Part shown: positions 4,810 to 44,527 of the stretch, one piece after another
How the letters are laid out: each line of letters opens with the position of its first letter
Numbering within the stretch: the stretch's first letter is position 1
Program-made: the position numbers and the translations under genes
The notes under the pieces: generated by a model
Seen by the model: only the letters and a program-made list of their open reading frames with translations
What the model was told of the DNA's origin: nothing
The model's database searches: none
Origin: Pseudomonadota bacterium
GTDB lineage: Bacteria; Pseudomonadota; Gammaproteobacteria; Burkholderiales; Methylophilaceae
Length of the DNA stretch: 45,294 nt
Direction of reading: 5' to 3'
NCBI GenBank assembly: GCA_029556915.1
Contig: JAKQIT010000144.1
Location: forward strand, 1 to 45,294

Positions 4810-7446
4810 ATGGCAGTAAGTAATGAACTAACAAAACCAGAAAATGAAAGTGATTTTGAGGCGATGTGTCATGCTCTATACCGTCGGATGTGGAATGACT
4901 CCTCTTGCAGCAGAGTGGGAGGCCCAGGACAGTCCCAGTTCGGAATTGACATCCTCGGCCACGATGGCAAAATAAATGTAGGCATCCAGTGCAAGCACTA
5001 CAACAAAAAGACGTTCACCCTGTCAACCGTAACGGATGATGTCGCTCTAGCAGATGCTGTCGGCCTAGATATTGGCCATATGCTATTCGCGACAACTGCT
5101 GCGAACAAGAGCAAATTGGTGCTGGAAGTTCGTAAGCAGTTTCATGCAGTGCGTGCAGCGATTAACCAGGTCATAAATGCATCGCGTCCAGATGGCAATC
5201 ATAAAGGCGGCGTAGTCTGGCATACGCAAGGCTCAGGCAAGAGCATTACCATGACATGCTTTGCAGCGCGTGTCATGACTGAAGCTGCAATGGAAAACCC
5301 GACCATTGTTGTGATTACTGACCGTAACGATTTAGACGGTCAACTATTCGGCGTATTCTCGCTCTCGCAGGACTTGCTACGTGAGCAGCCAGTACAAGGT
5401 GAAACGCGCCAAGATTTACGTGCAAAGCTAGCCAATCGTCCTTCCGGCGGTATCGTGTTCGCAACCATTCAGAAGTTCATGCCAGGCGAAGATGAAGATA
5501 GCTTCCCTGTATTATCAGACCGCTACAACATCGTTGTAATTGCTGATGAAGCGCATCGAACCCAGTATGGCTTTGAAGCCAAATTCAAGGGCGATGCCAA
5601 AGGTTATCAGGTAGGCTACGCTCAACATTTACGTGATGCTCTGCCTAACGCTACCTTTGTTGCCTTTACTGGCACCCCGGTTTCAAGTGAAGACCGTGAT
5701 ACTCGCGCCGTCTTCGGTGATTACATCCACGTTTACGATATGCAGCAAGCGCGGGATGATGGCGCTACAGTCGCAATTTACTTTGAGTCACGCCTTGCCA
5801 AGTTAGGACTGAATCAAGAAGCGTTACCTGAGATTGATGCTGAAGTAGATGAATTGGCCGAAGATGAAGAAGATGACCAGCAGGCTCGCTTAAAAAGCAA
5901 ATGGGCTGCACTCGAAAGCATTGTTGGTGCTGCTCCACGCATACAGCAAGTAGCCAAAGACCTCGTTGAGCATTTTGAAGAGCGTAACAAGGCACAAAGC
6001 GGCAAGGCTATGGTTGTCGCCATGAGTCGTGAGATTTGTGTACACCTCTACAACGCGATTACCGAACTGCGCCCGGACTGGCATGATGAAGATCCAGAAA
6101 AAGGTGCAATCAAAGTCGTTATGACTGGTTCAGCCAGCGACAAACCATTACTCAGACCGCACGTATACTCCAAGCAAGTTAAAAAACGCCTTGAAAAACG
6201 CTTCAAAGACCCTGACGACCCGCTACAGCTAGTCATAGTACGCGATATGTGGCTGACTGGTTTTGATGCGCCGTGCGTACATACGCTGTATGTCGACAAA
6301 CCGATGAAGGGGCACAACCTGATGCAAGCGATTGCCAGGGTAAATCGTGTATTCCGCGACAAACAGGGTGGCCTGGTTGTAGATTACATCGGCATCGCAA
6401 ACGATCTGAAACAGGCACTCAAAGAATATACCGCTAGTAATGGCCGTGGCCGACCTACGGTTGATGCTCACGAAGCTTATGCAGTGCTGGAAGAGAAACT
6501 CGACGTACTTCGCGCGATGTTGCACGGCTTTGATTACAGCAACTTTCTATCAGGCGGGCATAGTGTTTTAGCAAAAACGGCTAACCATGTACTCGGCATT
6601 AAGGATGGAAAAAAACGCTTTGGCGATACTGCGCTGGCAATGTCAAAAGCATTTACTTTGTGCTGCACTTTAGATGAGGCTAAGGCTGTACGTGAAGAAG
6701 TCGCTTTCTTCCAGGCAGTGAAAGTGCTGCTAACCAAAAAAGAAATCAGCATCAAGAAAAAAACCAACGAAGAACGCGACCTGGCAATACGGCAGATCAT
6801 AGGCTCAGCCGTGGTGTCCGAGGAAGTAGTCGATATATTCGATGCTGCCGGACTGGATAAACCAAATATTGGTATCCTGGATGAAGACTTCTTAAACGAA
6901 GTGCGTAACCTGCCTGAGCGCAATCTTGCTGTAGAAATGCTGGAACGCCTGCTAGAAGGTGAAATTAAAACCCGCTTCGCTACAAACATCGTGCAACAAA
7001 CTAAGTTCTCGGACTTGTTAGCTAACGTGGTTAATCGCTACCAAAACCGCTCGATCGAAACTGCTCAAGTCATTGAAGAGCTCCTCGAAATGGCCAAGAA
7101 ATTTAAAGAAGCGGCCGACAGAGGTGCTGATCTGGGATTGAGTAATGACGAATTGGCTTTCTACGATGCTCTAGCCAATAACGAAGAATCTGTGCGTGAA
7201 CTAGGCGATGAAACGCTAAAGAAAATTGCACATGAACTAGCTGAAAGCTTGCGCAAAAATATAACTGTTGATTGGGCTATTAGGGACAGTGTACGTGCAA
7301 GTTTACGCTTGTTAGTTAAGCGCATACTGCGTAAATACAAGTATCCACCAGACCAACAGAATGAGGCTGTGGAGTTGGTTTTGCAACAAGCTCAAACTTT
7401 AGGTGATGCTTGGGTATATTCAAATAACTTTAGTGAAAATAAATGA
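4810..7446 (+). CDS. Chimeric type I restriction motor: Mrr-like PD-(D/E)xK domain fused to an HsdR helicase
   Basis: The product is 878 aa. Residues 11 to about 105 look like a small PD-(D/E)xK endonuclease, with E17, GID (D47), QCK (Q60, K62) and ATT near 94-96. From about residue 108 the sequence is HsdR: a [12 protein letters not shown] lead-in, Walker A TQGSGKS (139-145), DEAH (246-249), then [20 protein letters not shown] and RVNRVFRDK, and the C-terminal helical region. HsdR subunits usually exceed 1000 aa and carry their own nuclease of about 250 aa before the motor. That part is missing and replaced here. No hsdM or hsdS is nearby, so it cannot be a standard type I system as seen. 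It overlaps the next gene by 4 bp (ATGA). It is either a functional stand-alone defence protein or a deletion fusion. Confidence 0.85.
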
Positions 7447-43157: not shown

Positions 43158-43757
43158 ATGATGACTTTATACTCGGGGACAACAGACCCCTACAGTCACC
43201 GTTGCCGCATCGTGCTTTTTGAAAAAGGCATGGATTTTCAAGTGATCGATGTTGATATGGCCAACAAGCCAGAAGATTTGGCAATTATTAACCCGTACAA
43301 TCATGTGCCAGTGTTGGTGGAGCGTGATTTAATTTTGTCTGAAGCCAATATTATTAACGAATATATCGATGAGCGCTTTCCGCATCCTCAGTTGATGCCG
43401 CCTGATCCTGTCATGCGCGCACGGGCAAGATTGTTTTTATACAATTTTGAAAAAGAACTGTTTGATCACATTAAAGATATTGAATCTGATGATGAAGAAA
43501 AGGCAGATAAAGCTCGCAAAACGATTGCCGATAATTTAACGCAACTAGTGCCAATTTTTGGCAGACAAAATTATTTGTTGGGTGACGATTATTCAATGTT
43601 GGATGTTGCGGTAACACCGTTATTGTGGCGTTTGGGTCACTATGGCATCAACTTGCCAAACCAAGCTGCACCCATTTTAAAATATGCGGAGCGTTTATTC
43701 TCTAGACCGCTTTATGCTGACGCGATGACTCCATCAGAAAAGGTTATGAGAAAATAG
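43158..43757 (+). CDS. sspA: SspA, stringent starvation protein A (GST-fold RNA polymerase partner)
   Basis: The product is 199 aa, a glutathione-transferase fold. MTLYSGTTDPYSHRCRIVLFEKGMDF opens the thioredoxin-like domain, then INPYNHVPVLVERDLILSEANIINEYIDERFPHPQLMP, then the all-helix domain. In E. coli SspA binds sigma-70 RNA polymerase holoenzyme and does not use glutathione. It lies 3 bases after petC and precedes sspB, the usual order. Confidence 0.94.
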   Translation: MMTLYSGTTDPYSHRCRIVLFEKGMDFQVIDVDMANKPEDLAIINPYNHVPVLVERDLILSEANIINEYIDERFPHPQLMPPDPVMRARARLFLYNFEKELFDHIKDIESDDEEKADKARKTIADNLTQLVPIFGRQNYLLGDDYSMLDVAVTPLLWRLGHYGINLPNQAAPILKYAERLFSRPLYADAMTPSEKVMRK

Positions 43758-43794
43758 CAAAAAAGATGTTTTTAATCGCATCTTCATAGCACCT

Positions 43795-43829
43795 GCCCTG
43801 TAAGCCAATATCCATGTGGCTTCCAGGGC
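43795..43829 (+). repeat. REP-like palindrome, copy 4
   Basis: GCCCTGTAAGCC, loop AATATCCATGT, then GGCTTCCAGGGC: the longest stem of the four copies. It lies between sspA and sspB, after a short AAGATG...CATCTT hairpin at 43763-43784. Confidence 0.78.
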
Positions 43830-43837
43830 ATTCATTT

Positions 43838-43864
43838 TTGCTCGGCAGTATTTTGGTATATAAA
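43838..43864 (+). promoter_or_regulatory. Possible promoter of sspB
   Basis: TTGCTC (43838-43843) and TATAAA (43859-43864, within TATATAAATA) are 15 bp apart. This would give sspB its own transcript beyond the REP copy. Confidence 0.3.
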
Positions 43865-43909: not shown

Positions 43910-44527
43910 ATGACAACCTACACTTCAACAAAACCCTACATGGTGCGCGCCATACACGAATGGTGCATTGATAACGGACTTACGCCACATTTGCTAGTAG
44001 CGGTGGATGCGCACACTCGCGTGCCGATGGCCTACGTTAAAGACGGTGAAATTGTGCTCAACATCAATTACACCGCCACTAAAGATTTGCATATTGATAA
44101 TGAGGCGATTAGTTTCTCTGCGCGTTTTGGCGGAGTCTCACAAAATCTTTATGTGCCAATGCATGCAGTTAAGGGGCTTTTTGCACGTGAGAATGGTCAG
44201 GGCATGTTCTTTGAAGTTGGTACACCCCCTGAAAATACGACAAAACCTGCTAGTAACTTATTGCATGAAGCAAATACTGCAAAAAGTAAAGCGGACTTAA
44301 AGGCTCTAATTATATTGGGCAAAGAGCGTGGTTATGTGACCTATGCTGAAATTAAAGACCACGTAGCAGATGATGTGCAGGACTCGGAGCAAATTGATGC
44401 CATCATTAGCATGATTAACGACATGGGAATTCAAGTGTATGAAAGTGCCCCAGATAAGCCAGAACCGCCATCTTCAAGCCAAAAAAGACCAATTAGCAAA
44501 AAGCCTACGCTAACTATTGTAAAATAA
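43910..44527 (+). CDS. sspB: SspB ClpXP adaptor with an inserted sigma-70 region 1.1-like domain
   Basis: The product is 205 aa, longer than usual SspB (about 130-165). Residues 7-104 are the SspB substrate-binding fold: TKPYMVRAIHEWCIDNGLTPHLLV, VLNINYTATKDLHI, FSARFGGVSQNLYVPMHAV. It delivers ssrA-tagged and other substrates to ClpXP. Residues about 125-182 (ADLKALIILGKERGYVTYAE, then IDAIISMINDMGIQVYESAP) closely match region 1.1 of the housekeeping sigma factor RpoD. Residues 183-205 form a flexible Pro/Ser/Lys linker ending TLTIVK, which fits the ClpX-binding peptide at the end of SspB (E. coli LRVVK). All three parts are in one frame. No strong ribosome site precedes the ATG. Confidence 0.9.
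   Translation: MTTYTSTKPYMVRAIHEWCIDNGLTPHLLVAVDAHTRVPMAYVKDGEIVLNINYTATKDLHIDNEAISFSARFGGVSQNLYVPMHAVKGLFARENGQGMFFEVGTPPENTTKPASNLLHEANTAKSKADLKALIILGKERGYVTYAEIKDHVADDVQDSEQIDAIISMINDMGIQVYESAPDKPEPPSSSQKRPISKKPTLTIVK

Follow-up and report, generated by a model that had tools for sequence, protein, structure and literature searches.

The sspB gene at positions 43910..44527 on the forward strand of the window (the whole stretch of 45,294 nucleotides analyzed here) encodes, in a single open frame of 205 amino acids plus stop, a full SspB sequence whose tether contains one additional module, a sigma-70 region 1.1 domain, and whose ClpX-docking tail is intact. This protein is a genuine variation on a known adaptor, represented by one genome so far, and its added domain could physically tie protein destruction to transcription. 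The fusion suggests a direct link from regulated proteolysis to RNA polymerase, and a region 1.1 domain housed in a protease adaptor amounts to a natural construct for what the detached domain can bind. It also bears on whether an adaptor gains a new client through a domain in its tether, as the engineered peptides described in PMC12373786 do.

The SspB substrate-binding fold (residues 7-104; 43928..44221, forward strand) is delineated by Pfam, by sequence matches in the PDB, and by the predicted model, with the SspB profile PF04386 matching the 205-residue protein at E 2.2e-35 (122.4 bits against a curated cut-off of 27). Among the NCBIfam models, NF008769 (ClpXP protease specificity-enhancing factor) scored 168.2 bits, above its cut-off of 135, and the remaining SspB equivalog models scored under their own cut-offs. 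The second domain (residues 125-186; 44282..44467, forward strand) is a match to Sigma70_r1_1 (PF03979; E 1.1e-23, 83.5 bits against a cut-off of 22.5) that covers positions 2-63 of the 81 in the profile. A sequence search of the PDB separated the same two parts: residues 7-102 matched SspB chains (best E 8.8e-28, the other SspB matches lying inside residues 4-108) and residues 127-184 matched RpoD chains (best E 2.3e-16, the RpoD and SigA matches lying inside 124-189). The Pfam search found no sigma domain other than region 1.1 in the protein, which sets it apart from group 1 sigma factors. A preliminary description of the locus had placed a sigma-70 region 1.1-like domain before the tail, at residues 125-182; the domain itself stood up to the HMM search against Pfam, whose match at 125-186 agrees with that interval, whereas the similarity detected by BLAST is slightly longer, beginning at about residue 115 and spanning residues 115-183 in the alignment with the RpoD of the same genome.

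On either side of the module lies linker, comprising residues 105-124 (44222..44281, forward strand) and residues 187-196 (44468..44497, forward strand; delimited by the SspB alignment and the model), and the protein ends in the XB-like ClpX-docking tail KKPTLTIVK (residues 197-205; 44498..44524, forward strand), which the SspB alignment identifies as the tail type of relatives. The protein retains every one of the 40 columns that show no variation across 26 other SspBs, the start and the tail among them, and these invariants, together with the PF04386 match and KKPTLTIVK, bear out the SspB fold at 7-104 and the ClpX-binding tail that had been proposed. An XB-like end, L.[ILV][VI][KR], is present in 79 of 80 relatives, the remaining one (L093) running off its contig. 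The fused protein resembles known SspB (PF04386; 1oul, 1ou9, 8et3) in its predicted fold, invariant residues, disordered linker, tail, and sspA neighbor, and differs in the distance from fold to tail, which is 95 residues, filled by region 1.1, versus 19-40 residues in the 79 relatives (L093, cut by the contig end, being left out of this range). In the SspB alignment, the module occupies the middle of the linker, and a roughly normal amount of linker remains around it. The neighbor, an SspA-like gene with GST domains according to Pfam and NCBIfam, occupies 43158..43757 on the forward strand; it matches NF007016 at E 4.1e-60, yet with 202.8 bits against a curated cut-off of 314, and agrees with the earlier statement that SspA is encoded next door.

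Both the SspB and the region 1.1 folds appear in predicted models. The AlphaFold2 model of the full-length protein, built on an alignment of SspBs only, had a mean pLDDT of 80.9 and a pTM of 0.51, with 7 of the first 10 ten-residue blocks, corresponding to the SspB fold, above 90, low confidence at residues 109-122 (pLDDT below 50) and in the tail, and a predicted helix-strand-helix-helix-strand domain at residues 124-177. In Foldseek searches with the full-length model, SspB structures ranked first (1.2e-12), and the second domain was matched to the Escherichia coli sigma chain 6psq_L (54 columns, rmsd 1.5, E 0.018) and to the Bacillus subtilis sigma 1.1 structure 5mww (E 0.13). Folded alone with RpoD sequences, the module reached a pLDDT of 73.9, and its 16 best Foldseek matches were all sigma chains, as established from entry titles and a PDB sequence search; the best of these had E 2.9e-3, probability 1.00, and TMq 0.60, with none at E 0.001 or below. 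Structure prediction thus recovered the region 1.1-like fold expected from the preliminary description. Compared with region 1.1 of RpoD (PF03979; 6psq, 5mww), the module is alike in sequence, predicted fold, and most charged positions. It differs in that it is not located at the N-terminus of a sigma factor and is accompanied by no further sigma regions, and in that the final 18 positions of the profile are missing, as is the acidic stretch following region 1.1 in RpoD, and the basic residues that open helix 1 are altered (R126S, R127K, and R129D).

Among the genomes examined, the fusion is found only in this one. In the genus (52 genomes, this one included), an SspB match was obtained in 46 of the 51 others, none of the 46 being fused, and none of the genus SspB matches reached beyond query residue 134. 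In the family, region 1.1 was matched in 58 of 59 other genomes, once per genome and always within a frame of at least 457 amino acids, with no fusion. At the level of the order, a region 1.1 match was present in 282 of 300 genomes, with no further fusion among the matches listed; 11 genomes besides this one had more than one such match, all in frames of at least 538 amino acids, the size of sigma factors. Across the class, SspB was detected in 346 of 377 genomes and, among the matches listed, 32 other genomes had SspB frames of at least 185 amino acids; region 1.1 was found at the place of SspB in none of these 32, and four genomes of the genus checked in the same way were likewise negative. 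Finally, translations and motif counts for the best 80 of 381 relatives on named contigs, with titles that read Methylotenera, Methylophilus, or Methylophilaceae and in some cases only Betaproteobacteria, proteobacterium, or Pseudomonadota, revealed the module in the SspB of 0 of 80. The survey of SspB lengths, with 19-40 residues from fold to tail in 79 loci, accordingly yielded no other fused SspB among these relatives. The order and class results rest on the matches listed, and rare fusions elsewhere may have escaped. A search of the literature, consisting mostly of open papers and covering part of the long result lists, found no description of a fusion between SspB and region 1.1.

Several short frames with region 1.1 in other genomes were considered as candidates and rejected. 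Two of them (in G104 and G263) are rpoD genes at contig ends, that of G535 is a 405-amino-acid sigma-like frame, and that of G320 is rpoD with a frameshift. G320 is a genome of the same order consisting of one contig, in which a frameshift downstream of region 1.1 interrupts rpoD, either through an error or through a real change.

The module most likely came from the RpoD of this same lineage. Over residues 115-183, it is 72% identical at the protein level to the RpoD encoded in the same genome, and the insert and the rpoD DNA are 76% identical over 165 core bases. Across a 55-residue core, identity to this RpoD is 80%, but of 70 other RpoDs 2 surpass this value (82%) and 27 match it, and in core DNA identity 7 of 70 other RpoDs exceed it. 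Raw identity does not, therefore, single out the genome's own RpoD, and the origin rests on shared derived residues and on a tree model. Taking as conserved the positions shared by at least 95% of the other genus RpoDs examined, region 1.1 of this RpoD is changed at 5 of 52 positions, whereas each of 21 other RpoDs is unchanged at all 52; outside region 1.1, 11 of 451 positions are changed in this RpoD (0-10 in the others), so that region 1.1 shows an excess of changes (Fisher p = 0.018). With 42 genus sequences, the number of changed positions was five in this genome, one in one other, and zero in 40. All five positions are changed in the SspB module too, three of them to the residue found in the genome's own RpoD: S126, V143, and V152 (SspB numbering) are common to these two proteins and absent from all 70 other RpoDs of the family that were compared. 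In a codon model in which the module was placed on each of 55 branches of a 29-tip tree, attachment to the own-RpoD branch gave lnL -2066.8, versus -2072.9 for the best of 55 other branches, a margin of 6.1 (6.3 before two added starts). The sequence evidence makes an origin of the module from the genome's own RpoD well supported. In a tree of the rest of rpoD, this genome falls inside the genus on a long branch, and the module would have been duplicated from rpoD into the sspB linker on that branch leading to this species. The rpoD gene in question lies at 5431-7368 on the forward strand of locus L066 and carries the five altered region 1.1 positions.

Mobile elements were also considered as a source of the module and, on the contigs and records listed, rejected. 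Among viral contigs, five stretches matched a pattern and two encode a relative, in both cases a full-length rpoD, with an integrase- or recombinase-like frame (labeled from a reading of the translation) near each. Eight phage records matched the domain, and these are annotated as RpoD or sigma factor or are unannotated. Plasmid records gave 57 matches, and in the 10 of these that were listed the annotation is RpoD or no gene is named.

With regard to function, the reading we tentatively favor, at somewhat less than an even chance, is that the module gives the ClpXP adaptor a second bait, whose target would be RNA polymerase or some other partner that region 1.1 can bind. The SspB fold would still capture ssrA-tagged or anti-sigma substrates and the tail would dock on ClpX, while the module would bind what RpoD region 1.1 binds, in the likeliest case the RNA polymerase DNA channel at times when the region 1.1 of sigma is absent or displaced, that is, in the core enzyme or in holoenzymes of sigma factors without region 1.1. 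As a consequence, ClpXP would be brought to RNA polymerase, or initiation would be damped by SspB, at a point where SspB already takes part in sigma-factor control. Region 1.1 is described as an acidic DNA mimic sitting in the RNA polymerase channel and, in that account, for group 1 sigma factors only (PMC4598750). Isolated E. coli R1.1 supplied in trans acts on E-sigma70-deltaR1.1 and E-sigma38 in Gp2 inhibition assays, and in the E. coli control reactions given in the same report isolated R1.1 without Gp2 did not antagonize transcription (PMC3778932). Because most charged positions of the module are kept and R1.1 acts in trans, docking on RNA polymerase, competition with sigma, or a decoy role, as put forward in the preliminary description, is plausible.

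The adaptor side of the second-bait proposal has parallels as well. Engineered peptides in which the XB motif of SspB is connected through a linker to a bait direct ClpXP to a target of choice (PMC12373786); these CLIPPER degraders share with the fusion a binding module, a linker, and the SspB ClpX-docking motif, whereas in the natural protein the module precedes the motif, the SspB fold is present too, and the target is a candidate one. SspB of Pseudomonas aeruginosa uses its two ends to bind the AlgU-MucA sigma/anti-sigma complex and ClpX (PMC13251409), and this delivery of anti-sigma factors, like that in the RseA complex (1yfn), places SspB at sigma-factor control. In those systems, binding is by the SspB fold, and no extra domain is mentioned as far as the published description goes. 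Against the second bait stand the missing acidic stretch, the changed basic residues of helix 1, the failure of isolated R1.1 to antagonize transcription when Gp2 was left out, the selection test made without a shared clock, in which neutrality is not rejected, and the restriction to a single genome. That the grafted region 1.1 serves as an integrated bait, bringing RNA polymerase or proteins that act through region 1.1, phage inhibitors included, to ClpXP, strikes us as rather unlikely; if true, it would represent a working region 1.1 outside sigma factors and a physical bridge between ClpXP and the transcription machinery.

Nearly as likely as the second bait is that a piece of rpoD landed by chance in a linker that accepts inserts, where it adopts its fold harmlessly and has no effect beyond, at most, a longer tether. 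The linkers of relatives vary in sequence as well as in length (19-40 residues in 79 loci), the module sits mid-linker with about the normal amount of linker left around it, and it is present in none of the relatives examined. A further genome of the genus has an apparently frameshifted copy of region 1.1 beside an htpX-like gene, which points the same way and suggests that such copying may recur without function. What a passive spacer explains less readily is the sequence of the module. By the Nei-Gojobori method, silent divergence from the genome's own RpoD is beyond the measurable range, and that from other RpoDs is saturated for 57 of 70, the other 13 being at least 1.3 with a median of 2.5 (YN00 gave 0.8-1.6 in the pairs that yielded an estimate). 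Despite this saturation, the module keeps 40 of 49 highly conserved positions, those on which at least 90% of 19 family RpoDs agree; by residue type, the figures are 19 of 21 for hydrophobic, 12 of 16 for charged, and 9 of 12 for polar, glycine, or proline positions. The net charge of the module core is -6, compared with -7 in the core of the genome's own RpoD, and, together with the charged positions retained, this indicates that the surface is largely preserved, not only the fold. The ratio dN/dS was 0.13-0.14 for the SspB copy, about 0.05 for the RpoD copy of this genome, and 0.02 in the background. Under a shared silent-site clock, with equal silent divergence of the two copies since their split, a value of 1 can be rejected for the SspB copy (2dlnL 20.8), which counts against a neutral spacer; without that clock, it is not rejected (2dlnL 2.5). 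Overall, constraint on both the fold and the surface of the module is probable, on the evidence of a single genome.

A regulatory role within the adaptor itself seems improbable. The acidic module would, in that case, pack against the SspB fold or ClpX, thereby tuning adaptor activity, in analogy to region 1.1 keeping free sigma compact (PMC4598750), and its predicted position, tethered between two functional ends, would be suitable for this. However, the module is flanked by low-confidence stretches, the pTM is only 0.51, and the full-length model, for which the inter-domain error is unreported, gives no sign of packing; the SspB part is, moreover, unchanged at the invariant columns (40 of 40). 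We consider it less probable still that the module is a decoy that catches proteins acting through region 1.1, such as a phage inhibitor resembling T7 Gp2, which the tail would then pass to ClpXP. Full inhibition of RNA polymerase by Gp2 requires region 1.1 (PMC3778932), and an arms race could produce the unusual region 1.1 of the RpoD in this genome, with 5 of 52 positions changed and all of them altered in the SspB copy. Yet duplication after those changes accounts for the same pattern, the eight phage records carrying the domain are RpoD- or sigma-annotated or unannotated, and Gp2 binds the beta-prime jaw (PMC3778932).

That an assembly or binning artefact made the fusion is highly improbable: the assembly comprises 165 contigs with 5.65% estimated contamination and the fusion was seen once, but both insert junctions are in frame with SspB-like linker and tail on either side, the silent sites that distinguish the insert from the genome's own rpoD are saturated, and the insert has derived residues in common with that RpoD. 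The genome holds two region 1.1 matches, one in the SspB of the window and one in RpoD on a separate contig, and the genus search returned exactly one SspB and one RpoD match for it. A simple misassembly is unlikely because a stray piece of the genome's own rpoD would be near-identical, and the insert is diverged; with the intact frame and the separate contig, an origin of this kind can be rejected as very unlikely. The preliminary description had named absence in all relatives combined with an assembly error at about 44280 as grounds for abandoning the fusion; the module is indeed missing from the relatives examined, but the sequence speaks against an error, and the comparison with the same-genome rpoD, with its 72% protein identity and saturated silent sites, supports the fusion as originally described.

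The surroundings of the gene have a few further features. The gap between sspA and sspB is 152 nucleotides here and spans 1-201 nucleotides across the relatives in which it is measurable, 78 of 80. Positions 43794-43840 in this gap form a strong predicted hairpin, with -21.5 kcal/mol and z -3.5 when 66 nucleotides are folded, and a T-rich stretch comes after it; scanning the surroundings of sspB for terminators flagged none, this hairpin included. Four tRNA genes lie downstream of sspB. The genome encodes a tmRNA with the tag ANDETYALAA, and in the genus a tmRNA was detected in 15 of 21 genomes at E 1e-40, with the tag ANDETYALAA in 4 (this genome among them) and ANDETYSLAA in 11. The separate small copy of region 1.1 in the other genome of the genus (G078) lies at 6680-6898 on the reverse strand of locus L065 and starts at the stop codon of the htpX-like frame, so labeled from a reading of its translation, with start and stop overlapping. 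Its similarity to region 1.1 extends until about IISMIKDM and then seemingly continues in another frame, so that the copy looks frameshifted; since it retains leucine at the two positions where the sspB copy has valine, it probably stems from a different duplication.
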